DNA from: a virus
DNA length: 64,000 nt
IMG/VR virus record: IMGVR_UViG_3300025889_000087
Span: 1 to 64,000 of that record
Reading direction: 5' to 3' (one strand)
The first letter of the stretch is position 1; the number at the start of each line of letters is the position of its first letter. Made by a program: the position numbers and the translations under genes. The notes beneath the pieces are model-generated. The model did no database searches, had not been told where the DNA came from, and was given only the letters and a program-made list of their open reading frames with translations. This document shows positions 19,036 to 45,971 of the stretch, one piece after another.

Positions 19036-19262
19036 TGGTATTCCTCCCTTATATCATCAGGAAAGCCATAGGGGTCGTGAATCACTCTTCCGGTCAGGTC
19101 CACAAGTGAAGACTCAACGTGTTCATTCGGGTCGAAGCAATCAGCGCAAATGATCGTATCGCCATCCAAGTCGATGAAATCATCGGTTTCCTTTCCGCAC
19201 ACTTCACAATAATACGGGTCGCTCTTGACGACAGACCAAGCGGCTTCAAAGGCTCCGCTCAT
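19032..19262 (-). CDS. AFDxAW-tagged zinc-ribbon protein, 76 aa
   Basis: It starts MSGAFEAAWSVVKSDPYY, the shared N-terminal peptide, and continues as a zinc ribbon with CEVCGKETD and CADCFD (four cysteines in two CxxC pairs). The tail is acidic. It overlaps the HMG-CoA lyase gene upstream and the DUF5872-like gene downstream by ATGA on both sides. The zinc ribbon gives no specific activity. Confidence 0.8.
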   Translation of the reverse strand: MSGAFEAAWSVVKSDPYYCEVCGKETDDFIDLDGDTIICADCFDPNEHVESSLVDLTGRVIHDPYGFPDDIREEYQ

Positions 19263-20107
19263 GCAATTGCTACGATGGCTTCCCCGTCTTTATGCGTGTC
19301 GGCTCGTATGTCGTTCACCACAGACAGTGCAGCGTCAAGATTACCCACGCCGGTATTCGCGCCCCATGCTCGCAAATGATGGACAAGAACTTCAGTCGCA
19401 AGATTCGCCCCGCTTTTTTCAGCAAACGGGCAGCCACCAAGACCACCGATAGAGGAATCGAATTGACTGATGCCTGCAAAGATGCCTGCACGAACCAGTC
19501 GGAGAGGCTTTGCTACATCACCCCTGTGGTGAAGATGGAGGGCAGGTTCGACTCCTGCTTCTCGTGCGAGTTGGGCGAAGAGCACCACGTCTTTCTCAGT
19601 CCCAACGCCCACAGTGTCGGCAAACACAACCGTGTTCCCGAACATAGCAGCATCGCGCACCACTGATCGAATAGTGCCTTCGGAAAACACACCGGAATAC
19701 GGAGAGCCAAACGCCATAGAAACGTAGACACGCACGTTTTCCTTGGGGTAGCCGTTGAGGAACGTCCACAATTCATGGACTTTTTCGCTGCGCGTCTTCC
19801 CCATGTTTTTCATGCTGAAATGCTCACAGGGGCTCAAAACGATATTGATTTTCTCGACACCGACTTTGAGAGCCCGCTCAAAACCTCGGCGGTTCATCAC
19901 CAACGCTGAGCCACGACCGCTAAACACTTCTTCTGCGTCTGCCATTTGCGGCACCAATTTTGGGTGCGCAAATGACACTTCTTCGACGTGAACCAAACCC
20001 GCGTCGTAAAGGCAGCGAATCAATTCTCGCTTTTTTTCGCTCGGCACAAAGTCGGACAACGATTGCAGACCGTCACGAGGACCCACCTCGTAGACGGTCA
20101 CGCGCAC
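19259..20107 (-). CDS. Hydroxymethylglutaryl-CoA lyase homologue
   Basis: HMG-CoA lyase splits HMG-CoA into acetyl-CoA and acetoacetate. The 282 residues cover the whole TIM-barrel enzyme: YEVGPRDGLQ (6-15, catalytic Arg11/Asp12), SFAHPKLVPQMADAEEV, SMAFGSPYSG, FADTVGVG, LHLHHRGD with His191/His193 in the metal-binding HxH, and the family signature GGLGGCPFAEKSG with catalytic Cys226. The metal/catalytic residues recognisable here are all present; HDT after the second His is changed to HRG. The start is GTG. It sits between virion genes with 4- and 10-base overlaps, so it is a stable operon member. In archaea HMG-CoA is also the mevalonate precursor, so the enzyme could redirect isoprenoid carbon or serve leucine catabolism. 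Confidence 0.85.
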   Translation of the reverse strand: MRVTVYEVGPRDGLQSLSDFVPSEKKRELIRCLYDAGLVHVEEVSFAHPKLVPQMADAEEVFSGRGSALVMNRRGFERALKVGVEKINIVLSPCEHFSMKNMGKTRSEKVHELWTFLNGYPKENVRVYVSMAFGSPYSGVFSEGTIRSVVRDAAMFGNTVVFADTVGVGTEKDVVLFAQLAREAGVEPALHLHHRGDVAKPLRLVRAGIFAGISQFDSSIGGLGGCPFAEKSGANLATEVLVHHLRAWGANTGVGNLDAALSVVNDIRADTHKDGEAIVAIA

Positions 20108-23324: not shown

Positions 23325-24053
23325 TCAAAGCAAGTCTACGGTATCAATCACTGCTCTTTCCACATTCAATCCAAATTGCGCAGCAATTGCTTCTACGTTA
23401 GTCGCCACCGCGGCTTTCCTCAGCCTCCGCAATTCATGTTGAAAAGGGAGGACTAAGGGGTGCTGCCGCTTGAAGCCATGCTCCCACATGTTCGCTGCCT
23501 GAAGATCCCACCAAAGGTCCATTTTATTCAGCAAAAGGCAGACCACCTTCGGTTTGAACATCTTCGCTCGTTTGCGTTGAACGCGGTTCAGCGTTTCGGG
23601 AATGTGTTTGTTCGTTATCAAGTCCACAATGTATTGAAAACCCGCCACGGCTTCTTGGCGAAGGTATTCCGAATAGAGAATCCGATGGTCGATGACATAG
23701 AACACAATGCTCACGTTGCGTTCGACCATATCTTCAGCCCACAGGTTCCAATAACGGCTTTCACCGCCAACGTCGGCTGAAGTCACGGGGACCTTCCGCC
23801 CATTCCACCGGACCTGCTTCTTTGTGCTATGAGGGCGATCCACCTTCCCGTGCCGCACGGGGTGGGTTGTCCGCAATTCGTGAGGAATGGGCTCGATGTC
23901 GCCGGGAACGGTCAAGAATTGGTCGAGAGTCGTTTTACCGCTAAGGGAGGGGCCATAGACACCAAAGCGGTGAGGGCGAATGATGCGATAGAGGTATGCC
24001 GCCAATTGCGCCGAGCCCATCAGGACGTGGCCGACGAAGATCCAAGACGACAT
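23325..24053 (-). CDS. Ras/Arf-like small GTPase with N-terminal membrane segment
   Basis: A P-loop GTPase with its motifs in order: G1 GPSLSGKT (34-41), G3 DVGGE (94-98), and G4 NKMD (176-179) at the end of a hydrophobic strand (KVVCLLLNKMDL). The length of 242 fits a single small-GTPase domain. Residues 4-25 (WIFVGHVLMGSAQLAAYLYR) could be a membrane anchor. The G3 form DVGGE, where Ras has DTAGQ, is closer to Arf and bacterial MglA than to translation GTPases. It is next to two small membrane proteins in the same run, so a membrane-surface switch is plausible. GTPases of this class are very unusual in viruses. Confidence 0.75.
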   Translation of the reverse strand: MSSWIFVGHVLMGSAQLAAYLYRIIRPHRFGVYGPSLSGKTTLDQFLTVPGDIEPIPHELRTTHPVRHGKVDRPHSTKKQVRWNGRKVPVTSADVGGESRYWNLWAEDMVERNVSIVFYVIDHRILYSEYLRQEAVAGFQYIVDLITNKHIPETLNRVQRKRAKMFKPKVVCLLLNKMDLWWDLQAANMWEHGFKRQHPLVLPFQHELRRLRKAAVATNVEAIAAQFGLNVERAVIDTVDLL

Positions 24054-24912: not shown

Positions 24913-25992
24913 TCAGTGATATAGCACAGACCACCCAACCGCGAATGCGTCTTGGGATTTGCCGAACAGTTTTCCCTGCTCCATGTATCGTTGTTGTGGG
25001 TAGTGCTTGAACCAGTCCAAACCGGGAATGTTGGCATACGCAATCATTTCAGGTCGAGGGCCTCGTTCCGCTCCTTTGCCCCCGCTTCTGTCCATTCGTG
25101 TATTCAACACAGTGTCGAACCCCTCGGCGTCGTAAAACGGGCGAGCAAATGCTGAATTGAAAGCAACAACCGGAAGCCCCTGCCTCGCCAAGCCCCCCGC
25201 CCATTCGGCCATTGGTTGCTGAAGATCGTCAAAGCCACCCGGCGTGTAGGTCCCCCGTTCCATGTAATACGGCGAGTCAAGAACGAGGAAATCCTCTTCG
25301 GGGATAATGAGGCCGTTTTCCATCACTTCTTCAATGCCCATGTTGCGCAAATCCCAACCCTGCATCAATGGTGCGTAGTGTGAATAATCCCAAGATGGGG
25401 GATATTTGATGGGGCTTCCGTATGGGAGATCGGTGTAATTTCCGAAATCACCCCGCGCACCCCCCTGCCAACCTGATTGTTGCATCATCAGCCACATTTG
25501 CGCCATCAGCATTTTCTCTTCGGGACTCCTTTCTTCTTGAGGGGGCAGGTTGAGCATAAGATCATTCACTGAGCCCTGACTCGGGGGCCATGAACCCATC
25601 CCCGTCGGCGTTCCGCCGCGAAGCCTCTCATAGTATGTCTCCTTGTCCACGACATCATCTTCATTGGTGAATTGCGACCAATCAACGCTAAATCCGTCAG
25701 GATTCTGAATGTGAGCGAACGCATTTATGAGGTTCGGGTTGAGGTCGGACAACAAAGCCCGTTCGGGTTGCAGGTTCAGGGGAATGTTCCCACCGCCAAG
25801 GAATGGATCGACAAGGCGACGATGACGACCCACACGATTGAATGCGTCACGGAGGGGGCCAATGTAGTGAGGTCGGCCCTTGCTTCCTTGCCACCTTAGC
25901 GGGGAAGGGACGCGGGTTTTTCCCGTAATGTCTTGCATGGCTGCCCACGCTGCTTTTTCAGGTGTCATTTTGCGACCGCGAACTTCCATCAT
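24913..25992 (-). CDS. D12-class (Dam-like) adenine-N6 DNA methyltransferase
   Basis: It carries the class order: PLRWQGSKGRP (31-41) in the place of the RYxGGK motif, SAM-binding VDPFLGGGN (61-69), LSDLNPNLINAF, and the catalytic tetrad as DSPYY (239-243), where the usual DPPY has Pro changed to Ser. A long insertion between motifs contains the target-recognition region. The last residues, DAFAVGWSVLYH, resemble the AFDxAW peptide found elsewhere, although at the C-terminus. ATG at 25992 or 25989 follows TGGGGGA and is preferred to an upstream start that overlaps the previous gene. Confidence 0.82.
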   Translation of the reverse strand: MMEVRGRKMTPEKAAWAAMQDITGKTRVPSPLRWQGSKGRPHYIGPLRDAFNRVGRHRRLVDPFLGGGNIPLNLQPERALLSDLNPNLINAFAHIQNPDGFSVDWSQFTNEDDVVDKETYYERLRGGTPTGMGSWPPSQGSVNDLMLNLPPQEERSPEEKMLMAQMWLMMQQSGWQGGARGDFGNYTDLPYGSPIKYPPSWDYSHYAPLMQGWDLRNMGIEEVMENGLIIPEEDFLVLDSPYYMERGTYTPGGFDDLQQPMAEWAGGLARQGLPVVAFNSAFARPFYDAEGFDTVLNTRMDRSGGKGAERGPRPEMIAYANIPGLDWFKHYPQQRYMEQGKLFGKSQDAFAVGWSVLYH

Positions 25993-26002
25993 AATTCCCC
26001 CA

Positions 26003-27166
26003 TCATGCCTTCGTCCCCGCCCAATTTGGCCCAAACTGCAATTGCATGGCCCGCTCCATCTCGTCTTCGGTCAATTGCCGTTTGCCGTTTTTATCATGGT
26101 GTAGATAAGCGATGGTGACTGTCGGGTCCCAACAGGCACGGCAACCAAGGTCGCCCGTGCGCGGGTCAATGTTTGAATTGCAGTTCGACTTTGTTCCCCT
26201 CAGTGTTTTGGGACAAACGACCGAGTTCCTGCCCACCGCGTCGTATGTGGATGCTGAAATGCGCGGATGGCGCAGCAAATCAGCGATATTCGTTCCTGCG
26301 TATTCCGCATCGGGGCTGAGGGTGTCCATGGTTTCCCGTCCGGGCAACGAAATGCGCACGTTCACGTTTGATGGGAAAGCGTCGTCTTCCCACCCGCGAG
26401 CGTCGAGGAATTGCTCAAGGAAAGGCAATTGGCGAGTCGCCATCCAAAACCGCATATTCTCATGGGGCAGGGCTTGAGCCGCCAGATCGCTCACCTGCGA
26501 ATAGGAGCCGGGTCCCCGTGCGTCACCGGCAGTGAAAACGCGCACTGGAACACCGCTTGCCGATTCACGCCGCGAGATGTTTTGACTTGCGTCGTTATAG
26601 AGGACTTCTTGCATTCCCGACATGAAGGGATCAGAATCACCGAGGGCTTGGTCTATTCTCGCCCACAGGTTGTTTTGGACGTTGTTCATCGGATAACGGT
26701 TTTCACAAGCGTAGCAGTGTCCACACGCTGAGTCAGGGTCATTCCGCGTGGCGTAAATGCAGGCTTCGGGTGGGAAATCCATGATACCAATACCGGGCAT
26801 GGCCTCGGTGGTCGTGAAGCGCGAAAAGGCATCCCGTGCTCCCTGCTTCGTCGCGGGCAGGTTCAAGTCCCGAGCGACTTCAGACCACGGGGCAATTTCA
26901 CGACCTTCAAGTGGATAATCGACCAAACGCGGCTTCCCGTCGTCGTCACGCAACCAATCCCGCCATTTCCCTTGATTTGCGTTAAGCCAATCGAAGATTT
27001 CCTGATTACCACCACCGCCCTGTGCATATGTTCCCGACTGTTGCGGTGTCGGGTGGCTCCCGCCATACCGCTTATCCCACCAAAACATCTCATCCGGATC
27101 GCCCAATGCCTTCAGCAACACCCCGACGAGGGGCTCAAGGGCAATTGAACGGAGAATTATGCTCAC
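26003..27166 (-). CDS. Gp88-like cysteine-rich phage protein
   Basis: The layout follows the phage Gp88 family (PF17338 in my recollection): an opening cysteine cluster (CIYATRNDPDSACGHCYAC), a paired N-rich helix, a VRVFTAGDARGPGSYSQVSD segment equivalent to the family's RxHxSGDF, the FWMATRQ strand, and a closing cluster (VCPKTLRG, NCNSN, GCRACWD) followed by VTIAYLHH. The family is of unknown function; the cysteines suggest metal or Fe-S binding. The start is GTG, overlapping the upstream stop as GTGA. It lies between a methyltransferase and a metallopeptidase-motif protein. Confidence 0.65.
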   Translation of the reverse strand: MSIILRSIALEPLVGVLLKALGDPDEMFWWDKRYGGSHPTPQQSGTYAQGGGGNQEIFDWLNANQGKWRDWLRDDDGKPRLVDYPLEGREIAPWSEVARDLNLPATKQGARDAFSRFTTTEAMPGIGIMDFPPEACIYATRNDPDSACGHCYACENRYPMNNVQNNLWARIDQALGDSDPFMSGMQEVLYNDASQNISRRESASGVPVRVFTAGDARGPGSYSQVSDLAAQALPHENMRFWMATRQLPFLEQFLDARGWEDDAFPSNVNVRISLPGRETMDTLSPDAEYAGTNIADLLRHPRISASTYDAVGRNSVVCPKTLRGTKSNCNSNIDPRTGDLGCRACWDPTVTIAYLHHDKNGKRQLTEDEMERAMQLQFGPNWAGTKA

Positions 27167-29403: not shown

Positions 29404-30975
29404 ATGATGCCGAACGGTCAGCAGCCAATCTTCATTCTCCGCGAAGGAACCGACCGGAAGCACGGTCGTGTTGCACAGTCAAACAACATCGCCGCGGCCC
29501 GTGCCGTGGCTGACGCCGTGCGAACCACCCTTGGTCCCAAAGGCATGGACAAAATGTTGGTTGATGAGGGCGGCGATGTCATCATCACCAATGACGGCGC
29601 GACCATTCTCCGCGAAATGGACATCGACCACCCCGCGGCCAAGATGATCATTGAAGTCAGCAAAACGCAGGAGCAGGAATGTTTTGACGGGACAACCACC
29701 GCCGTCGTGCTTAGCGGTGAATTGCTGAAGCAGGCTGAGGAATTGCTCTCACAGGGCATTCACCCGACCACCATTTGCGACATTTTCCGCAAGGTCGGGA
29801 CCGAGGCCGTGAAGGCGTTATCCGGCTTCAGCAGCCATTCCGACGAAGCCATGTTGCTTAGCGTGGCTCGCACCGCCCTCACCGGAAAGTCGTCGGGCGA
29901 CCTGAAAGAGCACCTCGCCTCCATTTGCGTTGAAGCCGTTGAGCGACTCGACAAGCAGGACGGCTCAATCAACCTTGACGAAATTATGGTGGTGAAGGCC
30001 CTCGGTGGAGAAGCGACGGACTCATCCCTCATCCAATCCATCGTTCTCGACAAGGAACGCGCTCACCCGTCCATGCCGAAGACGCTGACGAACGCTCGTA
30101 GGGCCATCTGCGTCCTGTCCTGTCCGCTCACAGTGCAGACTACCACTATGGATGCAAACATTCAGATCACCGACCCGTCTCAAATTGCCGCGTTCTTGGA
30201 GCAGGAAGAGGCTTCTTTGCGCGAAATGGTGGATAAAATCGCCTCGTCAGGCGCGAAAGTCGTTGTGTGTCAGAAGGAAATTGACGACCTCGCCAAGCAC
30301 TACCTCGCCAAGCGACACATCATCGGCGTGGAGAAGGTCAAGAAGTCGGACATCGAAGCCCTGTCCCGCGCCACTGGCGCGGCCATTGTTGGCAACCTCG
30401 ATGACCTCGACACTGCCGCCCTCGGAACCTGCGACAACGTAATGGAGCAACGGGTGGGAGAATTGCCCATGATGTTCTTTGAGGGCTACGAAAAGAACCC
30501 ACCAGTCACACTCGTGCTTCGTGGCGGCACTGCGCCGTTCATTGAAGAAGTCGAGCGAGCCTTTGATGATGCCGTGGGCGTCGTCAAGGTGGCCCACGAA
30601 GACGAACAAGTCGTCCCCGGTGGTGGTTCCGTGTTCGCTGCCCTCGCTCAGTCCATCCTCACGAATGCAAACACCAAGGTGGGGCGCGAACGCATGGCTG
30701 CCGAGGCTTTCGCTGACGCGCTTCTCGTAATCCCACGCACTCTCGTGGAGAACGCGGGTCTTGATCCGGTGGACGAGATTATGACACTGCGTTCGGCCCA
30801 CGCTGAAGGGAAGGTGACGTGGGGTGTGGACGTGTTCGCGGGTGGCCTCATGGACATGGCCGAGAGCGACGTGTGGGAGCCACTGCGCGTTGTGTCGCAG
30901 GCCATCAAGTCAGCCGTCGAAACGTCAATCATGATTCTGCGCATTGACGACGTGATTTCGTCCAAGAAGGCGTGA
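29404..30975 (+). CDS. Group II chaperonin (thermosome) subunit
   Basis: A full-length ATP-driven folding chamber subunit, 523 residues. Motifs: [13 protein letters not shown] (42-54), NDGATIL (63-69), [14 protein letters not shown] (95-108) with the ATP-site Asp95, VVPGGG (about 403-408), WGVDVFAGG near residue 475. The usual EVGDGTTT is ECFDGTTT here, a substitution beside the nucleotide site. The C-terminus lacks the Gly/Met tail of many cellular thermosomes. It is the only plus-strand gene between two minus-strand operons and ends four bases from the stop of the array. Viral thermosomes are known from marine archaeal viruses and probably assist capsid folding. Confidence 0.95.
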
Positions 30976-30979
30976 TGAA

Positions 30980-31597
30980 TCACACAGGCCAACCAAGCGA
31001 CTGAAGGATTTCCCTTCTTCGATTGATGGCTCGTTCACGCAGGTGCTCAGGCAACCGCTCAACACCACGGGTCATCCACCGCATCCAGTCAATCTGTTCG
31101 TCAGGTATGGGAACGAGGAACTCGGGCGGAATGGGCGGGTTCATGTGAAATGTTCCCCATCCTCCGAGTTCACGAATGCCCTGATAATTCGGGAACCATG
31201 GTGCTTCCTCACGAATACCGAGGATTGTTGGCTTCCCCCTTTCTCGCGCCCTTGGCGTTCGCCATTCAAGCGGTTCGGTGATAGCAAGAAGTGGTCTATC
31301 TCCACGATCCATTACGGACCGTATGGCGTAGTTCTCGGCTACGGATTGGTTAGGACTCGACCAAACAATGCGCGTGTTCCTTATCTCCGGATCTGTCACC
31401 ATGGGGTTGAAATTGCGCAAAACGTCGTATTCGGGGGTGTCGCCAAACTCACCCATGCTCACAATCTGCGGCTGAATCCCCTCTTCCATGATGCGCTCAA
31501 GGGCCCGCGTGTTGGTCCCATGAAAAGAACGAATGCCGGGAGGCAATTCGCGCTCAGCCTTCACAATGTCCCACGCGAGGGAGAAGGCGGTCCTCAC
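30980..31597 (-). CDS. Tagged ADP-ribosyltransferase-like protein (last gene of array)
   Basis: The tag reads MRTAFSLAWDIVKAERELP. The body opens with IRSFHGTNTRALERIMEEGI (an H-G-T strand and helix typical of ADP-ribosyltransferase-fold proteins), continues with RIVWSSPNQSVAENYAI (the S-containing strand and NAD-cleft helix) and ends with IPPEFLVPIPDEQIDW, a pattern also seen in the protein at 33804-34238. GTG at 31597 forms a GTGA overlap with the upstream gene and follows GGAGG; an upstream start would overlap by 52 bases. ART fold is moderately supported; target unknown. Confidence 0.7.
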   Translation of the reverse strand: MRTAFSLAWDIVKAERELPPGIRSFHGTNTRALERIMEEGIQPQIVSMGEFGDTPEYDVLRNFNPMVTDPEIRNTRIVWSSPNQSVAENYAIRSVMDRGDRPLLAITEPLEWRTPRARERGKPTILGIREEAPWFPNYQGIRELGGWGTFHMNPPIPPEFLVPIPDEQIDWMRWMTRGVERLPEHLRERAINRRREILQSLGWPV

Positions 31598-32457
31598 TGC
31601 CAACCCTCCACTTCGTCTTCCATCCGTTCTCGTAGCCCGCGCCATTTAATTTCGTGCATCCGTTGGCGATAATACGGGTCCTCTTGGTTGTGTGACCACA
31701 ATTGCTTCGCTTCCCACGATTGAACCGGGTCAGGTCGGTTGTCGATTTCCATTCCGTAATTTTGCTCCAATTCACGGGCCAAGTCGCGCATAGCCTCGCC
31801 TATGCCTCTTCGTTGGTATTCATGTTGCACCGCAAGATCCGAACCACTGTGGGCATAATCAGACAAGAATGGACGTAAGAGTTCAAACATTTCCGGCTCC
31901 CACCAGTCCTCAACTGCCGCAATTGCTTCTTTGGTGTCTTCGGGGACATCATCTCGTTCCAATACAAAGTCCCGTATGTATCGTCCGCGATCTTCCATAT
32001 CGTCAAAAGGATCACTGTGCCTATAACCGTAAATCCTCAAATGCCCAATGGGGTTTTCAGTCGCTTGTGCAAATGGCGAAGGGGCGACACCCTGCGTTTC
32101 ACGGGAAGGGAAGACTTTGACGGCAATTCCGTCGTCGAAACCGCCGCCATACGCAACCATAGGCCATTCTATGCCGTCGCGATCAACGTGCGTTGCGTGA
32201 AATAGGCGATCTCGCAAGCCGGGGTTATCGAGGGTATAGCCCCAACCACCATATCCTTGTGTGCCGTCTTCGTTGATTCCATGCCGTTCCATCAACACGG
32301 CATTATCCCTGTCCGCTTCGTCGGTGAACGCGCTCAATTCATCCAAAAGAGCGCGGCGTTCAGCCAACGCCTGCGTGTATTCGGGTCCAATTTCACGAAT
32401 TGAATTGAGATCCAGTGGGGCTTTCACCACCAACCACGCGGTGTCGAAAGCGTTCAT
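31594..32457 (-). CDS. Tagged GNAT-like acetyltransferase, 287 aa
   Basis: The tag MNAFDTAWLVVKAPLDLNSI is followed by a helical region and a C-terminal GNAT-like core: LAVQHEYQRRGIGEAMRDLA carries the acetyl-CoA loop pattern (Q/RxxGxG/A) at the start of a helix. The tail, YYRQRMHEIKWRGLRERMED, is nearly identical to that of the protein at 32918-33817, so the two are recent paralogues. ATGA-type overlaps on both sides. The substrate is not predictable. Confidence 0.75.
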   Translation of the reverse strand: MNAFDTAWLVVKAPLDLNSIREIGPEYTQALAERRALLDELSAFTDEADRDNAVLMERHGINEDGTQGYGGWGYTLDNPGLRDRLFHATHVDRDGIEWPMVAYGGGFDDGIAVKVFPSRETQGVAPSPFAQATENPIGHLRIYGYRHSDPFDDMEDRGRYIRDFVLERDDVPEDTKEAIAAVEDWWEPEMFELLRPFLSDYAHSGSDLAVQHEYQRRGIGEAMRDLARELEQNYGMEIDNRPDPVQSWEAKQLWSHNQEDPYYRQRMHEIKWRGLRERMEDEVEGWQ

Positions 32458-32921
32458 TCTTCCATCACCCCAATGTCCGAAGTGCCGTGCTTTTCACGCA
32501 TCCTTTGAGCAAATCCTTCACCAAGATCCGTTTTCATTGACCTGACCGGATCAAAAAAGGTCTTCCCTTGAGATTGAGCCAAACGCACGATGAGATGCAA
32601 AAGGGCTTCCTGATACCCTTTTCCTCTATACCCACTCTTTGTCGATATTGTATAGGGATAGATGCCGTGGTCGAAATATGGCGCAATAATGTGGTGAGCC
32701 CTCCAATCGTCGTCTTCATCCATGATGTAGGCCGAACCGACGCCCGCTCCATCCTCACTCAAGCGGGCAAAAGCAGGCAATCGTTCCTGTGTTTCAGGGT
32801 CGATGAAGTCCGCTTCCAAGCGTTGATAGGGGTAGCCCCCGATTTCCTCGGTTGTTTCACGGATTGAGTCAAAGTCAAGCGGGGCCTTCATCAAAGACCA
32901 AGCGCGGTCGAAGGCGGTCAT
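32454..32921 (-). CDS. Tagged GNAT-like protein, 155 aa
   Basis: The tag MTAFDRAWSLMKAPLDFDSI is followed by a compact GNAT-like domain: beta-strand region LPAFARLSEDGAGVGSAYIM, a strand with PYTISTKSGYRGKGYQEALL (acetyl-CoA loop RGKG) and a following helix and strand. It is shorter than its two GNAT neighbours and lacks their common tail. Overlaps neighbours by four bases at each end. Confidence 0.72.
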   Translation of the reverse strand: MTAFDRAWSLMKAPLDFDSIRETTEEIGGYPYQRLEADFIDPETQERLPAFARLSEDGAGVGSAYIMDEDDDWRAHHIIAPYFDHGIYPYTISTKSGYRGKGYQEALLHLIVRLAQSQGKTFFDPVRSMKTDLGEGFAQRMREKHGTSDIGVMEE

Positions 32922-33817
32922 TGTTGATCCCCCATCCGCTCACGAAGACCGCGCCACCAAATCTCATGCAATCGGTCGCGGTAGTTCGGGTCGTTTTGGT
33001 TCGCCGCCCACATGCGCTGCGCGTCAAAGGACTGGTTGGGGTCGGGCCTCAAATCCACCTCTAAATCGTCGGGAAGGTAATTGTCGTTGAGTTCGCTTAG
33101 GAAATCGCGCATGGCCGTGGCTATGCCTTTGCGTTGATAAGAAGGTTTAACGTCGAGCATTGAACCTTCCGAGTATTCATAGAGCATGTCGCTCGCCGTC
33201 TCGTAATTGGCTTCTATTTCATCCAATTCGTGGTCCGTGTATTCTTCCGGGTTGTGTTCTGCGCGAATCCGAGCATCGAATGGGTTTTCAGACAAGCCCA
33301 TTCTTTCGGTGATGATGCCTTCAAGGATTGAGCCTCGGTCTCCATGACCTGCGGCAGTGACAGAAAGCGAACCTACCCGATTTGGTAAGTAGTCACCATA
33401 AAACCACCTGTCGCCAATCTGCGCACCATGCCCCCTACCAATTTCCTTTATGGGGCCTTGTCCTCCGCCGACATATGCTGCCACTTCGGCACCTCCGCCC
33501 CCCAGTCCGTAGGTAATCATTGGAAACTTGTTGCCCTTTTTGTCGTAGTGGTTTGCACGGTAAATCGAGCCGTGGTGTCGGGCCATCCCGATGATGTGCT
33601 CCAACGAAGAAAGTTCTTCGATGAGTTTGACCCAATCTTGATAGGGGATGTCTCCCATGATGCCGTGAGTCGTCGTCTTATAATCTTCCTCAAGCAAACT
33701 CCGAAGCATGTTCGCTCTTTCCGTCATAGCCCAAAAGTAGTCATCGCCCAGTCTTTGCACTGAGTCAAGATCCAGTGGGGCTTTCACCACCAACCATGCA
33801 CAATCAAACGGGCTCAT
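32918..33817 (-). CDS. Tagged GNAT-like acetyltransferase, 299 aa
   Basis: The tag MSPFDCAWLVVKAPLDLDSV starts at ATG 33817, after CGGGGGACGACG; an upstream extension in the frame lacks the tag and would overlap the next gene heavily. The C-terminal region has VKPSYQRKGIATAMRDFLSE, the GNAT acetyl-CoA loop and helix, then NYRDRLHEIWWRGLRERMGD, shared with the protein at 31594-32457. The middle has a glycine-rich stretch (GLGGGGAEVAAYVGGGQG). Confidence 0.75.
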   Translation of the reverse strand: MSPFDCAWLVVKAPLDLDSVQRLGDDYFWAMTERANMLRSLLEEDYKTTTHGIMGDIPYQDWVKLIEELSSLEHIIGMARHHGSIYRANHYDKKGNKFPMITYGLGGGGAEVAAYVGGGQGPIKEIGRGHGAQIGDRWFYGDYLPNRVGSLSVTAAGHGDRGSILEGIITERMGLSENPFDARIRAEHNPEEYTDHELDEIEANYETASDMLYEYSEGSMLDVKPSYQRKGIATAMRDFLSELNDNYLPDDLEVDLRPDPNQSFDAQRMWAANQNDPNYRDRLHEIWWRGLRERMGDQQ

Positions 33818-34238
33818 CGTCGTCCCCCGTTTTTCGTCGCATTTGCTCCTGCAATTCCTCACTAAACCACGGGTTTTCGTATTGCATCGCGTTGGGCCAG
33901 TCGATGTCTTCGGGCGGAATTGGCTCGTTCGACACAAACGACGCCATCTCAGGGTCAATGCCGAGTATTCGTGCGAGAATGGGGGAATGGTCTATACCCG
34001 GCCTCATGCGGGGGTCGCCTTCATCACGCCAAAACGGGAGGGTGATGATTTGTCGGCTTTGTGGCCGCGTCATACCGATCCACTTCGCCGCCCCGTCTTC
34101 GTCACGAGAAGCGTAGACTTCACCAAAATTGGACTTGATTCCTTGGGCTGCAATAGGACCAAGGTTTTCCATAGGCGTGGCGTGGTAATACCACGGTGCC
34201 TTGACGAGCGACCACGCTCGGTCGAAGGCATCCGCCAT
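33804..34238 (-). CDS. Tagged ADP-ribosyltransferase-like protein, 144 aa
   Basis: Tag MADAFDRAWSLVKAP runs directly into WYYHATPMENLGPIAAQGIK, the H-x-T strand and following helix of an ADP-ribosyltransferase/RNA 2-phosphotransferase-like fold, then GEVYASRDEDGAAKWIGM for the second conserved strand and helix. The end PIPPEDIDWPNAM resembles the ending of the protein at 30980-31597. The domain is minimal in size. Activity is unproven. Confidence 0.72.
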   Translation of the reverse strand: MADAFDRAWSLVKAPWYYHATPMENLGPIAAQGIKSNFGEVYASRDEDGAAKWIGMTRPQSRQIITLPFWRDEGDPRMRPGIDHSPILARILGIDPEMASFVSNEPIPPEDIDWPNAMQYENPWFSEELQEQMRRKTGDDDEPV

Positions 34239-34256
34239 GGTTCATGCACCCCTCGC

Positions 34257-35060
34257 TCATCGTTTGAACATTCCGCGACCAAACATGAAGTCCCATATTT
34301 CAGGGTCAATGTTGTGTTGCTGACCTGTGGGTATGGGCCTTCCTTCTTCGCCGCCTGCATAAAACAGGCCCCATTGTTGAGGTGGACCAGTATAGCCGTC
34401 AATGTTGGTTGCCCCTAAATCGGAAAGCACACGTCTCCGCAATTCGGGGTCACGCAATATCGTTCGCTGCATCATCATGGCCGCGCTTGGTGGTTTGAAC
34501 ACCTGAGAAGCGTATTCAGGTATAATCACCCAATCTTTGCCATGTTCTTGAAGACGCTGACCCCATTTTTCAACATCTCCTTCGCCAAAAAGGCCACGAT
34601 AGAGAGAAAAGGCCAAATTGTTCAATTCATCTTTCTCGCTCCCATCCCAATTTATGTGGCTCGTTCCGTCATTTCCCATTTGCATAGGAGGGACATAGAC
34701 CCGCTCGGGGTTCACTTCAGGCAACGTGAACGAATGGACATCACGGGTATTCCCTCCATGCTGTTCTTTGTCCCATCCCGCGTATTGCTGCGCCGTCAGC
34801 AATTGCGGCGAAAAGAAGCGACCGCTTGGATCGCCCGCACGGTATAGGGTCTGCCCAGTGAACGGGAAAAATGGTGCTAAATTGCTCGGCTCATTGACTT
34901 GAGCCATGATGAGTTCGGGCATGATGTCTTCCAAAAAATCATGGTCTTCGCCCGCCCAATCCCACGGCTGCCTGCGTCGGTGTGCGTCAAAAATCCTGAA
35001 GGCCTCGTCCTCGGTGATGGGGGCTTTGATGATCGCCCATGCGGCGTCGAAGGGCGTCAC
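34257..35060 (-). CDS. Tagged ADP-ribosyltransferase-like protein, 267 aa
   Basis: Tag MTPFDAAWAIIKAPITEDEA. Near residue 70 TLYRAGDPSGRFFSPQLLTA and QQYAGWDKE match the Y-R-(A/G) strand, FSP strand and following helix of R-S-E-type ADP-ribosyltransferases, followed by VHSFTLPEVNPERVYV. A catalytic Glu could not be fixed. GTG at 35060 gives a GTGA overlap with the preceding gene after GGAGG, so it is preferred to the TTG two codons upstream. Confidence 0.7.
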   Translation of the reverse strand: MTPFDAAWAIIKAPITEDEAFRIFDAHRRRQPWDWAGEDHDFLEDIMPELIMAQVNEPSNLAPFFPFTGQTLYRAGDPSGRFFSPQLLTAQQYAGWDKEQHGGNTRDVHSFTLPEVNPERVYVPPMQMGNDGTSHINWDGSEKDELNNLAFSLYRGLFGEGDVEKWGQRLQEHGKDWVIIPEYASQVFKPPSAAMMMQRTILRDPELRRRVLSDLGATNIDGYTGPPQQWGLFYAGGEEGRPIPTGQQHNIDPEIWDFMFGRGMFKR

Positions 35061-35815
35061 CACCAATCATCCTCCGTGATTCCCACATCGTTAGCGGCCT
35101 GTCGCTGCCATTCCTCCAAATTGTCCCATTCGCCGTGCATTTCAATGGGTGACGCATCTTCATGGGAAAAAGATTCCACGAAATCATCGTATTCGGACGT
35201 TCTATACACATCATCGGTTGCCTGATGTTGAGGCGGATTGCGGTTAAACCGCTCAAGCGATTCATTGTTCCGGTAGGCAATCAAACGCTGCAAAGCCTCC
35301 CGTGCGTGTTTTTCCCGTTGGTCGGGTGTGAAAGCGGCTCCCGAAGTCACTTCAGGGTCAAGCCGCGCCTTTCCTTCATTGATGAACTCCTGAAGCAATT
35401 CAATAACGCGGTCGTGCGGAAGCCTCACGCTCCCCACATCGTTCCAATCTTCCAACATAACACCAAAGCCGGGACTGAAAGGGTCTTCACGCAACATTCC
35501 CGGTTCGTCTTCTCCATATTCGCTTGGGTCAATGACGCTGATGCTCGGAATTGTCCTCCGCATTGGCGGTGCTTCAATACCGCGTGAGTCAATCAATTGT
35601 CTGTTGGCGGGGTTCATGTATCGCGCAGCCGAACCGAAGAGCGCGTATTGGAGGGCGGCGTCGAGATTGTTTGAAAAATACCGTGGGTCGTCCCTCGCGT
35701 CCCCGCCGCTGAACAACATTTCGTCGTCTTCAATTGTCCTAACGAGGCCCCTGTCGCCCGCATAAACGTCAATGGGGGCTTTGATGATCGCCCAAGCAGC
35801 GTCGAAGGCGGTCAT
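35057..35815 (-). CDS. Tagged protein of the RYWT/YALFGS subfamily, 252 aa
   Basis: Tag MTAFDAAWAIIKAPIDV. The body contains MLFSGGDARDDPRYFSNNLD followed by AALQYALFGSAARY and RRTIPSISVIDP. The same three blocks, in order, occur in the proteins at 35812-36471 and 38416-39090, defining a three-member paralogous subfamily. The arrangement (L-Y/F-x-G strand, FS/WT strand, A..YA helix) suggests an ADP-ribosyltransferase-like fold. The C-terminus is acidic and unrelated to the paralogues. Confidence 0.72.
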   Translation of the reverse strand: MTAFDAAWAIIKAPIDVYAGDRGLVRTIEDDEMLFSGGDARDDPRYFSNNLDAALQYALFGSAARYMNPANRQLIDSRGIEAPPMRRTIPSISVIDPSEYGEDEPGMLREDPFSPGFGVMLEDWNDVGSVRLPHDRVIELLQEFINEGKARLDPEVTSGAAFTPDQREKHAREALQRLIAYRNNESLERFNRNPPQHQATDDVYRTSEYDDFVESFSHEDASPIEMHGEWDNLEEWQRQAANDVGITEDDWW

Positions 35816-36471
35816 CGCAATACCCCAAGCCGTTGGTGCCCTGCCCCCTGTTCAAGCATTTCAAGCAAAAGCCGGTAAAGGTGGGCCTGTTGGTCTATGA
35901 ACCCGCCGAAATCATATCCTCCCGTAGCATTCCGGTCAAACTGTTTTGCGCCCTCAACCAATTCCCCCGTATATGGATTTGAGAATGTAGGTTGCGTTCC
36001 CCACGCCAACCTCCCTTGCCCGTCCGCCAACTCGCGCAACAAGATTTGCAGCATTTCATTGTCGGGTAATGTGCGGTAGCGGACCCGTGGGGGTTGGCTC
36101 AATGATGGGGCATAAAAACCACTATTCCCCCTCCGAACGGTCTTGTCCGCATCAATACCAATCCAATTCATGTTCTCGGGTTCTCCCGTTAAAAACTCAG
36201 GATCGTGAATGAGGCGGACTGTTTCGTCCGTGGGGGTAGCAATCCGCAATTCAGGTATTCCTGTCCGGTATTTCCTCTCCCCTCCACTTCCTGAGCCAAA
36301 TACGGCGTAGGCAAGAGCCGTTGATTTGTCGGGTGTCCAATACCGCGTATCTTGTCCCCCGCGTTTATTGCCCTGATAAAGCGTGTCGCCTTCTTCGCCG
36401 GACAAAACACGAAAACCCGGCATGACGTAGGGCATTTTTACGATGTCCCAAGCGGCGTCGAAGGCGGTCAT
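35812..36471 (-). CDS. Tagged protein of the RYWT/YALFGS subfamily, 219 aa
   Basis: Tag MTAFDAAWDIVKMPYVM. LYQGNKRGGQDTRYWTPDKS then TALAYAVFGSGSGG and GIPELRIATP align with the other two members of this subfamily. The C-terminal half is helical (PDNEMLQILLRELADGQGRL). ATG at 36471 follows GTGAGGTATG; the longer frame adds only MRYD. ADP-ribosyltransferase-like fold is the working hypothesis. Confidence 0.7.
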   Translation of the reverse strand: MTAFDAAWDIVKMPYVMPGFRVLSGEEGDTLYQGNKRGGQDTRYWTPDKSTALAYAVFGSGSGGERKYRTGIPELRIATPTDETVRLIHDPEFLTGEPENMNWIGIDADKTVRRGNSGFYAPSLSQPPRVRYRTLPDNEMLQILLRELADGQGRLAWGTQPTFSNPYTGELVEGAKQFDRNATGGYDFGGFIDQQAHLYRLLLEMLEQGAGHQRLGVLR

Positions 36472-36472
36472 A

Positions 36473-36685
36473 TCATACCTCACCTACCCAATCCCAATTT
36501 GCATCAAGGAATCGCTGTTCTATTCTATCCTTTGCCCCATTCTCTCGTTGAACAATAGCCACTTGATGTGTTCCCACCCCATCGGGTATCATATCATACC
36601 CCACCAATTGAACCTGTTCGCCTGTGTGTTTGTTCCTCAGAACTCCCTGCTTGAGCAAAGCCCAAGCGGTGTCGAAGGCGGTCAT
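36473..36685 (-). CDS. Tagged minimal protein, 70 aa
   Basis: Tag MTAFDTAWALLKQGVLRN. The rest is a small beta-rich domain (GEQVQLVGYDMIPDGVGTHQ, then VAIVQRENGAKDRIEQRFLD). It is one of the smallest members of the array and shows that the tag can precede a very short cargo. Not recognised. Confidence 0.65.
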   Translation of the reverse strand: MTAFDTAWALLKQGVLRNKHTGEQVQLVGYDMIPDGVGTHQVAIVQRENGAKDRIEQRFLDANWDWVGEV

Positions 36686-37176
36686 AGAAGCCCCCTCCTT
36701 CGCAGTTCCTCCATAATCGCAGGGTGTTCCATGCCCTCAACGAGCATGGCTCCGTATTCGTTTTCCGGTCCCCCCAAGTGAACAAACTCGTCCTGTATTG
36801 CTTCGTGGCCTTCTTCGTGCATGATTGACTCGATGATGCGCCGAATCATTTCATCTTCAGAAAGTCTTCGCCCTCCGAGTTCTTCGTTTCTGTTGCCCGG
36901 ATCGTCCCAAGAATGGATAGGATGTGCGAGATTTACGGCTGCGACGTATTTATCGTCCGTGGCGTAAAGATTAGAAAAAGGCCCACGTTCACGTTCTTCC
37001 GGCTTTCTGCTCCGTTCTCTCCATCGAATGTTTGTCTTAGGCCATTTCATCGGAACCCAATTTTGCATCCTGCTATGAAAAGCGGCTTCTCGACTTCTCT
37101 CGTTCCCGTTTTCCAAATCCGCTCCAAAATAGAAGTCGGCCTTCAAAATCGCCCAAGCGGCGTCGAAGGCGGTCAC
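36682..37176 (-). CDS. Tagged putative zinc metallopeptidase, 164 aa
   Basis: Tag MTAFDAAWAILKADFYFG. Helix RRIIESIMHEEGHEAIQDEF contains HEEGH (His120, Glu121, His124), the zincin active-site motif. A third ligand could be Glu or His in the following EFVHLGGPENEY or VEGMEHPAI. The preceding PFSNLYATDDKYVAAVNLAH supplies likely strands. GTG at 37176 overlaps the previous stop as GTGA. A short zinc protease injected with the genome is possible; the protein could also be inactive. Confidence 0.7.
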   Translation of the reverse strand: MTAFDAAWAILKADFYFGADLENGNERSREAAFHSRMQNWVPMKWPKTNIRWRERSRKPEERERGPFSNLYATDDKYVAAVNLAHPIHSWDDPGNRNEELGGRRLSEDEMIRRIIESIMHEEGHEAIQDEFVHLGGPENEYGAMLVEGMEHPAIMEELRRRGLL

Positions 37177-37802
37177 AACGGCTCCCCCCATTCTTCCCGC
37201 AGTTCCTCGGCTAAACGCTTGGGGCGATTGACGGGCTCAATAGGCACTGGTGGGCGGTCTTCCTCAATGACCGGCCAATAGGTGCCTTCGGGATAGGTGG
37301 TGTGGATGTAGCCGGTGTTAAACGCATTCGTTGGCCGAACCCCTGTTTGTCCCTCCCAAAAGTCCATGCCCTCAAGACTTTGCAGGTTGCTTGGAGCAAT
37401 CCTTCTCATCAGCCCGAGGGCCCCCCGATCGGCGAGAATGGCCGCCAAATCGTAAATGGCGGTCATGTAGCCGCGGTTCCGATAAGGATTCCACGTCGAA
37501 GTGCCACCCGACGAGAACACCTGCGACGGCTCGTGTAGTGGGGCGGCGGGACGGTTGAAGGTTGCTTGAGAGCGGTCAATTTCATTTTGTCCATACGGTC
37601 CGGGGCCTCGGATGGCGACATGCACGTTTTCCCCTATGACCTGAGCCGTCATGGGGTGCTCTTCGCCCGTCACCGGATCCAAGAAGCGGGCCACCGGCTC
37701 GGGTGGCGTTTTCGTTGAACTCCACTTGACGTTTTGCGGATTTACAGAATCCACGATGAGGGGGGCCTTCATGACCGACCAAGCGGTGTCAAATGCCGTC
37801 AT
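37173..37802 (-). CDS. Tagged GNAT-like protein, 209 aa
   Basis: Tag MTAFDTAWSVMKAPLIVDSV. The region STWNPYRNRGYMTAIYDLAA followed by ILADRGALGLMRRI has the loop-helix of a GNAT acetyl-CoA site (RNRGY), with preceding strands EHPMTAQVIGENVHVAIRGP. Similarity to the other GNAT-like members is limited to this core. The C-terminus is Pro-rich. Confidence 0.68.
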   Translation of the reverse strand: MTAFDTAWSVMKAPLIVDSVNPQNVKWSSTKTPPEPVARFLDPVTGEEHPMTAQVIGENVHVAIRGPGPYGQNEIDRSQATFNRPAAPLHEPSQVFSSGGTSTWNPYRNRGYMTAIYDLAAILADRGALGLMRRIAPSNLQSLEGMDFWEGQTGVRPTNAFNTGYIHTTYPEGTYWPVIEEDRPPVPIEPVNRPKRLAEELREEWGEPL

Positions 37803-38422
37803 CGCAACACCCCAAGCCGCTCCAATTCAAAATAGGTGCGGTCCGGCATATCCCTACCCTCCCTGTATCGGATTTCCTCTCCGTCGGAGAATACCGGAAT
37901 GACTTCTTCAAGATGCTGAGGCGCAATCGGACGAACCGACATCGTAGCGCGGTAGCCAATTCCGGGTTGAAAATCGGGGTCTTGCCACACAGGACCCGGC
38001 GGGGTAATACGCGATCCAATAATGGACATGGGGCGTCCATGCCACGCATCGGAAAAGAATTGGGCCATCAGTAGCGGGTGAAGGTCGTTGTTGAAAGGGC
38101 CTTTCTGTTGCCATTGTCTTAGACTGACGGGTTGCCTTTGGTGACGAAACGTATAGACGGCTTCGTCATGGGGCCATTCGGGATATTTGAACGCCTCGCC
38201 CCTTTCTGCCTGTTGTATCGCTTCCATCACGGCTTTGCTATCAGGGGCAGGGCGACCGTAATGCGGCAAAACCGGACGTGGGACAATTCCTTCTTCAAGA
38301 ACCTGATCGACAAAATCAGAAGGAATGGCGCGGTAGGCACGGAATTGGTCTTTTCCGCCCCATGAGGGCGTGACTTCGACCGCCTTCACGACCGACCAAG
38401 CGGTGTCGAAAGCGTTCACCAT
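37799..38422 (-). CDS. Tagged protein, possibly ADP-ribosyltransferase-like, 207 aa
   Basis: Tag MVNAFDTAWSVVKAVEV. FRAYRAIPSDFVDQVLEEGI followed by VPRPVLPHYGRPAP looks like the first strand and helix of an ADP-ribosyltransferase-like fold (YRA, vl..Gi). A later strand IGYRATMSVRPIAPQHLEEV resembles the terminal strand with acidic residue. ATG at 38422 overlaps the upstream gene by 7 bases; the frame extends further but without a better ribosome site. Assignment is weak. Confidence 0.62.
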   Translation of the reverse strand: MVNAFDTAWSVVKAVEVTPSWGGKDQFRAYRAIPSDFVDQVLEEGIVPRPVLPHYGRPAPDSKAVMEAIQQAERGEAFKYPEWPHDEAVYTFRHQRQPVSLRQWQQKGPFNNDLHPLLMAQFFSDAWHGRPMSIIGSRITPPGPVWQDPDFQPGIGYRATMSVRPIAPQHLEEVIPVFSDGEEIRYREGRDMPDRTYFELERLGVLR

Positions 38423-39090
38423 ACGTCCAACCCCCACTGCCGATTGCGATAGGTGCGCGAAGTGCCTGCGTTGTCTTGGCCCCCAGTGTCCAAACGCCCC
38501 GGTTCCTCCAAACCTTCAAGTCGTTCTGCCGCCCCCATAAGATGTTCCCGTATTTGCTGCTCCGTCGCGTTTTGCGCCGATGTGTCACCCACATAGACCC
38601 CTTCGTCGGTCATCCGCCGTTGGATTCCGTGTTCACCGAGAAGACGGATCATGTCGTAGATGTGGTTGCTCAATTCCGCTTTTGGCATAGGCGTGTAATT
38701 GATGGGGGCCTGATCGACGGCAAAATCATAATCGGGGTTCAGCGGCTCGCTCATCACTGCTCCCCTTTCCCCGGTCCATGTTTCAGGGTCTCCAAATAGA
38801 ACATTTTGCGGAGAACGGTCAAAGTCCAAAGGGCCGGGGTCCTCAGCGACCATGACTTGCGGAATGGTTTGACGCATGGTCTGCATCCCCGTGCCCGAAC
38901 CGAATAGAGCATAGCGCAGTGCCTCATCGAAATTGCGCGTCCAATAGCGCGGATCGTCGCCCTGATGCCCACCGGAATAGAGAGGGCCCTTGATGGACTC
39001 ACGGTCGTCAAGGAACGGTTCGTAGTCGTCGTCTATGACGAACCACGGGGCCTTGACGACCGACCAAGCGTCGTCAAACGCTCGGCTCAT
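38416..39090 (-). CDS. Tagged protein of the RYWT/YALFGS subfamily, 224 aa
   Basis: Tag MSRAFDDAWSVVKAPWFV. LYSGGHQGDDPRYWTRNFDE then ALRYALFGSGTGMQ and RQTIPQVMVAEDP match the subfamily at 35057-35815 and 35812-36471. The C-terminal half is unrelated to them. ATG at 39090 is preceded by an 18-base sequence that also precedes the gene at 39599. Confidence 0.72.
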   Translation of the reverse strand: MSRAFDDAWSVVKAPWFVIDDDYEPFLDDRESIKGPLYSGGHQGDDPRYWTRNFDEALRYALFGSGTGMQTMRQTIPQVMVAEDPGPLDFDRSPQNVLFGDPETWTGERGAVMSEPLNPDYDFAVDQAPINYTPMPKAELSNHIYDMIRLLGEHGIQRRMTDEGVYVGDTSAQNATEQQIREHLMGAAERLEGLEEPGRLDTGGQDNAGTSRTYRNRQWGLDVW

Positions 39091-39131
39091 GTGATTCCGC
39101 ACGAACCGCGGAGAGAAAAACGTGGCGGTCA
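39088..39131 (-). repeat. Copy 1 of a ~44-base duplicated gene-start segment
   Basis: Positions 39088-39105 and 39597-39614 are identical over 18 bases (beginning CATGTGATTCCGCACGAA), and the next 26 bases (to 39131 and 39640) match imperfectly. In copy 2 the segment encodes the C-terminus of the 53-residue first array protein; in copy 1 the same sequence is in a non-coding or relict frame. Confidence 0.75.
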
Positions 39132-39599
39132 GAACTCGGCTCCTTCCAAGTCTTCCAAAACACGATGCGGGCTTCCCTTGGGGGCGGCTTGCTTACGGGC
39201 CCTTGGGCGAGGCATACGAGATACGGAACCGTAGCCCCCGTAATCCTCGGAAGATGGCTTCTCCCTCTTTGACTTAAAACCGTGGTCGAAGAATGGACCC
39301 TCATAATCTCCCCTTGCGCTCAAATCAAGACCACTTGTCAAACCTGTGTGGGGGCCATGTTCCGAATCGCCCAATCCGAGTCTTTGGCGGGCGAAATCTC
39401 GCTGATAGTCTGCGGCAAGCAGCGCGTAAATGAGAGCATTCGGATCGACTGTCCCCAAATTGTGCGCACCCGAACCCATGTTGTTGGCGAGGTTCATACG
39501 TTCCTCGGTATCAGGGTGAACCTGTGAGTTAATGCGGTTGAATGCCTGATGGTTGGGGTTCGCCTTAACGATAGACCAAGCCGACTCAAACGCTCCCAT
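39129..39599 (-). CDS. Tagged unknown protein, 156 aa
   Basis: Tag MGAFESAWSIVKANPNHQ. The body has a short helical segment (DPNALIYALLAADYQRDFAR) and a disordered basic tail (KSKREKPSSEDYGG, PRPRARKQAAPKG). No fold recognised. It overlaps the 53-residue tagged gene upstream by 14 bases. Confidence 0.68.
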   Translation of the reverse strand: MGAFESAWSIVKANPNHQAFNRINSQVHPDTEERMNLANNMGSGAHNLGTVDPNALIYALLAADYQRDFARQRLGLGDSEHGPHTGLTSGLDLSARGDYEGPFFDHGFKSKREKPSSEDYGGYGSVSRMPRPRARKQAAPKGSPHRVLEDLEGAEF

Positions 39600-39747
39600 G
39601 TGATTCCGCACGAATCACAGGGATAAAAACGTCGCGGTGAGTCAGGGCCCTCACCAACCATCCCCCCATATTGCCTTCCCATCGACGGTGACTTGCTTCG
39701 TCCCATACCGAGAATGCGGCATCGAAGGCATCCACGCAATACCCCAT
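39586..39747 (-). CDS. First gene of array: tagged microprotein, 53 aa
   Basis: MGYCVDAFDAAFSVWDEASH carries a variant of the tag (AFDAAFSVW), and the body is only about 35 residues (RDVFIPVIRAESHGSV at the end). ATG at 39747 follows GGAGC; the frame extends to 39837 but no ribosome site supports that. It is promoter-proximal and may be a decayed member: a frame-shifted copy of its last 15 codons survives at about 39088-39131. Confidence 0.6.
   Translation of the reverse strand: MGYCVDAFDAAFSVWDEASHRRWEGNMGGWLVRALTHRDVFIPVIRAESHGSV
39597..39640 (-). repeat. Copy 2 of the ~44-base duplicated gene-start segment
   Basis: Partner of 39088-39131. The duplication covers the start codon of one tagged gene and the end of the previous one, as expected if gene units in this array were copied by unequal recombination. 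Confidence 0.75.
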
Positions 39748-39840: not shown

Positions 39841-40734
39841 AAGTCTCAGATTTTTTCCGTGTAGCGTCTGTGGTTAGGGAGGCCGCGCAGCAAAAAAAAA
39901 AAATGTGCCCGCAGGCAAGCCTGCGGGCCATTTTGTTTTTTTTCGCTACACTGCGCGGCAGGCCCGACCGCAGGTCGGGCCGCACGCTCGGCGTGGCGGG
40001 CTCGGCGGCATAGCCGCATAGCGGCGCAGTGCTGCGCTTTTGCTGCGTTGGCTCGGCCACCCGTGGTGCTTTGTGGTGGGTGGCGGTGGCCCGCCCATCC
40101 CCGCAATAGGCTCGCCGTCCCCCGTTTAGCACGCCTCACCCGCCCTCGCTCGGCCCGATCCTGCTCTCGACGGGCCATCCATGGGCTCAAATCGCTGCAC
40201 GGTGGGCCTTTTGCGGCTATGTGGCCCGCTCGCCCACCCTGTGGCTCGTGCTCCCTCACCAGTGGCCCGCCCTCAGCCGAGCCTGCCCCGACGCCCGGTC
40301 AGGCCGCTTTTGCTGCTACACGGTGCCTCCATGGGCGCAAAACGGGCATATGCCGGTATGTGGCCCGCCCCACCCCCTTCTGCGCAGATTTCCGCGCTCC
40401 GAGCCGTCGCCGCGCCACACCGCAGGGGTGCCGGACGGGCAGACTTTCGGTCACGGCCACGCAGAATGGGTGCGGTGAGCCCGTCGAGGCCATGTGCGGG
40501 GCATGAGTCCATGCTCATGGCCCATGCCCATGCCATGCTCATGGGGTCGGCTTTCTTCACTTTCTTCACTTTATTCATTCATATTTTTCTCTCCCCTTCC
40601 CCTCTATACCCCTTTTCAGGGGTGTATCTCATAGGTGATGGATGATGAAAGTGATGAAAGATTGAGGTTCAGTGGGCCGTTCACGGTAGCCCACCCAAAA
40701 ACCGCTACGCTGCACCACGAAACGCTGCGCTTGA
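39841..40734. other. Non-coding hairpin-rich region, candidate replication origin
   Basis: About 900 bases with no credible gene between the two divergent operons. It holds at least three strong inverted repeats: 39907-39928 (10-bp arms, loop AA), 39961-39981 (9-bp arms GGCCCGACC, loop GCA) and 40024-40037 (GCGCAG arms followed by TTTT). Four copies of GTGGCCCGC (near 40084, 40219, 40263, 40351) and two partial ~45-base direct repeats containing CCATGGGC are spread across it. It ends with a CATGCTCATGG-repeat patch (about 40510-40545) and a pyrimidine-rich, A/T-rich tract (CTTTCTTCACTTTCTTCACT and onward to about 40618). Repeats plus an unwinding-like tract beside the replication operon fit an origin. 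Confidence 0.5.
39882..39959. terminator. Bidirectional terminator-like hairpin
   Basis: A 10-bp GC-rich stem (39907-39916 with 39919-39928, loop AA) is flanked by about 12 A on the left and a T-rich run on the right, so a U-rich tail would follow the hairpin in either direction. Outside this a 9-bp pair GCCGCGCAG (39882-39890) and CTGCGCGGC (39951-39959) can close the structure. Confidence 0.55.
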
Positions 40735-40758
40735 TTCATATACACCCCATGGTGTAGG
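40735..40758 (+). promoter_or_regulatory. Early promoter/operator copy 1
   Basis: TTCATATACACC is followed by CCAT and GGTGTAGG. The TATA element begins 44 bases before the helicase ATG, leaving a short leader that contains the GGAGG ribosome site. The palindrome ACACC-N4-GGTGT is perfect here. Confidence 0.75.
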
Positions 40759-40778
40759 AAGGGCGACCGGAGGCCGAT

Positions 40779-45971
<5,193 letters not shown>

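Follow-up and report, generated by a model that had tools for sequence, protein, structure and literature searches.

Short peptides that bring unrelated proteins into a common container are known from several settings. The cargo-loading peptides of encapsulins and the encapsulation peptides of microcompartments are short and modular, stand at either the N- or the C-terminus, and recruit unrelated enzymes into a protein shell; those of microcompartments form a helix. Phage polyvalent proteins, for their part, deliver diverse effector domains. Among the tailed phages, the internal proteins of T4 and its ADP-ribosyltransferase Alt carry a short N-terminal capsid-targeting sequence (CTS) that takes them into the prohead (Mullaney and Black 1996, as in PMC5694885). 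The account of T4 given in that source describes few cargoes and a CTS of 10-20 residues that is removed by a protease (PMC5694885). In phage P1, an N-terminal signal loads the anti-restriction protein DarB into the head, and the first 30 residues are sufficient (PMC9024508), while many head proteins of giant phages such as SPN3US are ejected and have targeting regions at the N-terminus (PMC5694885).

The locus described here belongs to an uncultivated tailed virus. The window (the whole stretch of DNA that was analysed, 64,000 nucleotides) is part of a virus record of 96,109 bases. Its minus strand carries the portal, the large subunit of the terminase (10397-11839), which served as the reference for strand and kinship, the head maturation protease (624-1991; phrog_23555, E 1.7e-19) and a putative major capsid protein (1-612), cut at the contig end and assigned from its position after the protease and from its conservation. 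Genes for PolB, helicases and methyltransferases lie on the plus strand, together with those for a clamp and a clamp loader, which were read from the sequence. The virus is similar to Magrovirales viruses in having PolB and in having structural and replication genes that run in opposite directions, a likeness of gene content; compared with described phages, the best match of its terminase large subunit was to a Bacteroides phage, at 29% identity.

The preliminary description had proposed an archaeal host, and the viral PolB and a virus-encoded group II chaperonin (thermosome; 29404-30975, plus strand; E 7e-171) support this, as do the clamp and clamp-loader genes. The thermosome gene adjoins the gene array described below and is present in 10 of 12 virus records. 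Compared with cellular genomes, the protein matches various euryarchaeal and DPANN archaea at about 50% and Poseidoniales at 35%, a spread over several archaeal groups that singles out no one host lineage. Two other genes of the window merit mention. An HMG-CoA-lyase-like enzyme (19259-20107, minus strand; Pfam HMGL-like, E 4.7e-15) lies inside the late structural module, where a metabolic gene is odd, and is about 40% conserved in relatives of both of the virus lineages discussed below. A P-loop protein (GPSLSGKTT; 23325-24053, minus strand) is conserved in 12 of 12 virus records and has no Pfam match.

A gene array with a shared N-terminal peptide

Fourteen consecutive genes on the minus strand, from 39599 to 30980, encode proteins that begin with the same peptide, M-x-A-F-D/E-x-A-W-x-h-h-K (hereafter the tag). 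They were found by a six-frame search with re-selection of starts according to the pattern M-x(1-4)-[AP]-F-[DESN]-x-A-W-x-h-h-K, and in a position-specific scan with a threshold of 10 all of them scored between 27.0 and 35.5. Applied to 12 virus records, the same scan gave a single match in total on reversed sequence, as against dozens on the real sequence. Fifteen genes had originally been counted. Fourteen of these stand, but the fifteenth (39586-39747, minus strand), which encodes 53 aa with the degenerate tag AFDAAFSVWDE, is doubtful, with a score of 8.6 that falls under the threshold.

By blastp and phmmer, the bodies that follow the fourteen tags fall into nine families. Four are GNAT-like paralogs: 37173-37802 (209 aa), 32918-33817 (299 aa; Pfam E 0.038), 32454-32921 (155 aa; E 0.0088) and 31594-32457 (287 aa; E 0.0038). 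The Pfam matches of the last three (E 0.004-0.04) are under the curated cut-off; the family also has a profile match to AAC(3)-I (E 0.0085) and contains an RRRGYATA motif. Three further proteins, 38416-39090 (224 aa), 35812-36471 (219 aa) and 35057-35815 (252 aa), have LYxGGxxGDDPRYWT in common; the model of the last was of low confidence, and a fold search with it gave no match. The remaining seven are singletons within the array.

One of these singletons (30980-31597, 205 aa) appears to be a KptA/Tpt1-like member of the ART superfamily. Its body, in which the HGT...GLxP motif was sought for the ART fold, has a weak profile match to KptA (E 0.04), and the top 17 Foldseek matches of its model (pLDDT 74) are all KptA/Tpt1, the best with an E of 0.009, a probability of 0.99 and a TM of about 0.3. 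A protein of 164 aa (36682-37176) contains a HEEGH (HExxH-type) motif read from the sequence, for which a Pfam search gave no support, and another of 144 aa (33804-34238) is ART-like by its motif YYHATPMENL, with no match in Pfam. There is also a small protein of 70 aa (36473-36685), and three bodies have no assigned family: 39129-39599 (MGAFESAWSIVKA..., 156 aa, score 31.3), whose body and tag recur together in the related virus G001 (40653-41126); 37799-38419 (MNAFDTAWSVVKA..., 206 aa), with four members in different viruses; and 34257-35060 (MTPFDAAWAIIKAP..., 267 aa). Placing 30980 and 36682 in one family was rejected, because they were joined only through chaining at lax thresholds. Individual effector assignments of the tagged bodies are weak, at the values just given for the GNAT-like and ART-like proteins. 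The bodies had been described as unrelated from gene to gene, which is correct between the nine families but not among the GNAT-like and LYxGG paralogs.

Three further tagged genes lie in the window outside the array, all on the minus strand. Two are neighbors, encoding a small zinc-ribbon-like protein (19032-19262) and a DUF5872-like protein (18838-19035). The third encodes a P/Q-rich protein beside the terminase gene (11836-13188) with a tag near its N-terminus; a GTG start at 13119 gives a product (13119-11836) that begins MTPEQAFDAAWELLKYN, and a tagged homologue occurs in G001. A weaker tagged gene is found at 77744-77469 of the full record.

The tag was also followed through related viruses taken from IMG/VR, where, as had been anticipated, it sits on non-homologous bodies. 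At E 1e-4 the bodies of the 372 distinct tagged proteins cluster into 184 families, and across thresholds into about 174-212. The tag is thus independent of the body, and its conservation is not a by-product of homology between full-length proteins. Family matches of tagged representatives include NUDIX, D12 methyltransferase, GP88, DUF6321, DUF5872, TFIIB zinc ribbon and ParB-like proteins, and the tagged bodies vary strongly between viruses.

The tag peptide and its distribution

Over 262 tags the fixed-column consensus has F at 99%, A at 94%, W at 98% and K at 99%, in columns that are partly demanded by the search pattern itself. Past position +1 behind the tag no residue is conserved in this set and hence no protease site is apparent; the earlier suggestion that the head protease trims the tag found no support, though a protease gene is present. 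The codons of the tag vary at synonymous sites (e.g. GCC/GCA/GCT/GCG and TTT/TTC) while the residues are fixed, which indicates selection on the peptide and not on the DNA. The mean helical hydrophobic moment is 0.476, while 200 shuffles reached at most 0.298, and AlphaFold2 places the tag of the ART-like protein 30980-31597 as a helix at residues 4-16 with moderate confidence; the tag is predicted to be a short amphipathic helix.

In all fourteen array genes the tag stands at the extreme N-terminus, as first described, but this does not hold for the relatives. There, C-terminal tags occur (G005, 64856; G010, 15945), and in G012 a tag lies at a fusion junction ahead of a GP88 domain (33927). 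Given such copies, the tag is not a signal peptide, a secretion signal or a start-site artefact, and it appears to be an element for docking that can be recognised at more than one place in a protein. A tag or tag-like segment is seen at both protein ends in G005:C1 near 64856 and in G010:C1 at 15904-16338, both on the minus strand. No copy of the tag above threshold was found in the protease or the capsid protein.

All tagged records with a findable terminase or portal belong to two related lineages of uncultivated tailed viruses. Relative to the window, their terminase large subunits are 74-97% or 42-47% identical and their portals 76-100% or 50-53%. The strict tag pattern had no match in 84,980 cellular genomes (species), which provides no provirus or host link. 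Tagged genes have a late orientation, with 132 of 134 on the terminase strand, compared with 622 of all 928 called genes (622:306). Between the two lineages the major capsid protein is the most conserved structural protein (68-93%, with 68-69% identity from one lineage to the other), followed by the portal (about 51%), the terminase large subunit (about 43%) and the protease (37%). Because the two lineages have almost identical tags, the surface that binds them should be conserved too, and the major capsid protein and the portal would be the best candidates for the docking partner.

Exchange of the tag with covalent portal linkage

The portal protein of the window (7367-9163, minus strand) ends in a tail domain of about 100 residues, recognised by profile and alignment, that in other viruses is a separate tagged gene. 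In the window's lineage, 66 distinct viruses have this domain fused onto their portal, while the portal ends early in 38. Searched with a profile built from the fused tails, 30 distinct detached tails were recovered; the tag stands ahead of the tail domain in 29, and the thirtieth has a diverged KKSFDMVWHMVKEDG. No tail gene was found in six split loci, most of them with short flanks. Fused portals carry at the tag's aligned position only a degenerate remnant, for example PPTMDDILKR or GAFGLFKR. A tagged gene follows the portal at a distance of up to 1.5 kb in 37 of the 38 split cases versus 3 of the 66 fused ones, though the fused and split counts are not independent, since they reflect only two independent portal switches. 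In the tree of the portal core there are at least two changes between the states, one involving a clade of 37 and the other L101, which lies inside a fused group. Re-fusion with erosion of the tag within the clade of 37 is possible; in either direction the rule is the same, a tag when the tail is separate and none when it is fused.

That detached tails are tagged and fused ones are not argues that the tag takes the place of a covalent link to the portal, the behavior expected of a prohead-targeting signal. The C-termini of portals generally face the head interior; compare the portal of phage P22. On the simplest reading, the tag would bring its bearer to where the portal tail belongs, be it the portal or the prohead interior. 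Downstream of the portal in L285, L286, L287 and L276-L278, tagged cargo genes, DUF5872-like and others, lie between the portal core and the detached tail, and the portal boundary in split-portal viruses looks like a site of cargo insertion.

Other domains alternate between tagged and untagged forms. The window encodes a DUF5872/DUF6321 protein (17630-18865, minus strand) whose C-terminal domain, by homologue comparison, relatives encode on its own, often with a tag. In the window the DUF6321 domain follows a degenerate segment (GISWADVLRKK) within the fused protein; L070, L072 and L088 have it as a tagged gene of its own. Similarly, a GP88-family protein (26003-27166, minus strand) has a degenerate N-terminal tag in the window, and its orthologues in L073, L126, L023 and L090 have an intact one. 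Homologues of DUF6321, GP88 and the D12 methyltransferase also occur untagged, so that none of these three functions requires the tag; because the untagged copies include separate ones of DUF6321 and GP88, the tag is optional for these two. The D12 methyltransferase has a proper N-terminal tag in G025 and L073. In the window (24913-26034, minus strand) its C-terminus, DAFAVGWSVLYH, is weakly tag-like; although this is conserved in G001, it scores only 3.5 and is not claimed as a C-terminal tag.

A proposed prohead-docking signal and its precedents

We propose, with a probability of about 0.78, that the peptide acts as a transferable signal for capsid targeting (prohead docking), by which late bearers would be co-assembled into the virion and the effectors among them probably then ejected. 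The tag, A-F-D/E-x-A-W-x-h-h-K, would form a short amphipathic helix and bind a conserved component of the head interior, for which the major capsid protein and the portal are the likeliest choices; this binding would co-assemble the bearer into the virion. Products of late genes would bear it: modular effectors aimed at the host (ART-like, GNAT-like and HExxH proteins, D12 methyltransferases, NUDIX proteins and zinc ribbons), internal proteins encoded in the head cluster and, in certain viruses, the domain that others have within the portal. The preliminary description had envisaged an amphipathic docking helix that loads the prohead, and this idea is well supported by the portal-tail swap, the bias to the late (terminase) strand, the modularity of bodies over 174-212 families and the helical moment. 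Together with the free codons, the varied position of the tag, and the experimental precedent of short targeting sequences in T4 and P1, these observations strongly suggest targeting to the head. Injection of the tagged proteins, with effectors probably ejected along with the DNA at the next infection, is likely: host-directed enzymes that are made late are easiest to understand as cargo packaged for the cell infected next, like T4 Alt.

An alternative that we consider unlikely, yet the best of those weighed, is that the tag is a helix docking on the portal or its tail domain, building a complex at the portal, for instance a conduit for DNA ejection, in which the small proteins are structural and not effectors. 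Replacement of covalent linkage to the portal would be explained, as would the tagged P/Q-rich proteins that adjoin the terminase gene, but the bodies are enzyme-like, vary between viruses and fall into 174-212 families, unlike conserved conduit proteins. Distinctly less probable is a localisation or host-binding helix that acts in the producing cell, on a host receptor, a membrane or the virus factory, with detached tails recruited to the assembly site and not packaged. A localisation tag could well be amphipathic, and would be modular too; however, the tagged genes are co-oriented with structural genes, a fused portal tail needs no tag, and none of the 84,980 cellular genomes holds the strict pattern. 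We give very little credence to a chaperone- or immunity-binding helix, through which one viral protein, such as the thermosome, would keep tagged effectors inactive or unfolded. The thermosome gene does adjoin the array and recurs in most of the records examined, but it had no match in the many-tagged G025 and G017 (records that are possibly incomplete), and such binding leaves unexplained why a tag is needed on a detached portal tail but not on a fused one. Finally, a common translation-start or recombination sequence that merely happens to encode the peptide would suit the head-to-tail gene overlaps and frequent swaps, but is refuted by the codon variation at fixed residues and at odds with the C-terminal and internal copies.

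Returning to the prohead-docking signal, we somewhat favor a broader version of it, in which one nearly invariant helix of 12 residues would be a universal address that directs proteins into the head, so that any gene acquiring it could become virion cargo, yielding an open-ended and quickly swapped injected arsenal and even an outsourced part of the portal. To our knowledge, no virus has been described in which a single address loads hundreds of cargo families, and we are aware of nothing comparable, at the scale of whole genomes, in archaeal viruses; a literature search, thin on subscription journals, found neither the AFDTAW peptide nor a shared tag in archaeal viruses. If the proposal is true, the tag is a label for virion cargo that can be read from sequence, and it singles out several hundred proteins, most of them in no recognisable family, as candidate injected effectors of viruses that infect uncultivated archaea. 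It would also provide a small peptide with which foreign proteins could be loaded into capsids, and makes testable the old question of which head component recognises capsid-targeting sequences.

Like the T4 CTS, the tag is a short N-terminal peptide common to several proteins with different bodies, here of putative internal location. The likeness is in the way of working, and no sequence kinship with the T4 CTS is claimed. The tag differs from the CTS in having one strongly conserved consensus for hundreds of cargo families, in showing no cleavage site that can be recognised, in occurring also at C-termini or internally, and in trading places with a covalent link to the portal. The Dar proteins of P1 are without a common consensus (PMC9024508), whereas the consensus here is nearly invariant. 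Propeptides of the SPN3US type are mostly longer than 100 residues and are cleaved (PMC5694885), in contrast to a tag of about 12 residues with no sign of cleavage. Polyvalent proteins join their domains in one large polypeptide, where these viruses have separate genes with a common tag. And while the peptides of encapsulins and microcompartments load protein shells, the container proposed here is the head of a tailed virus.
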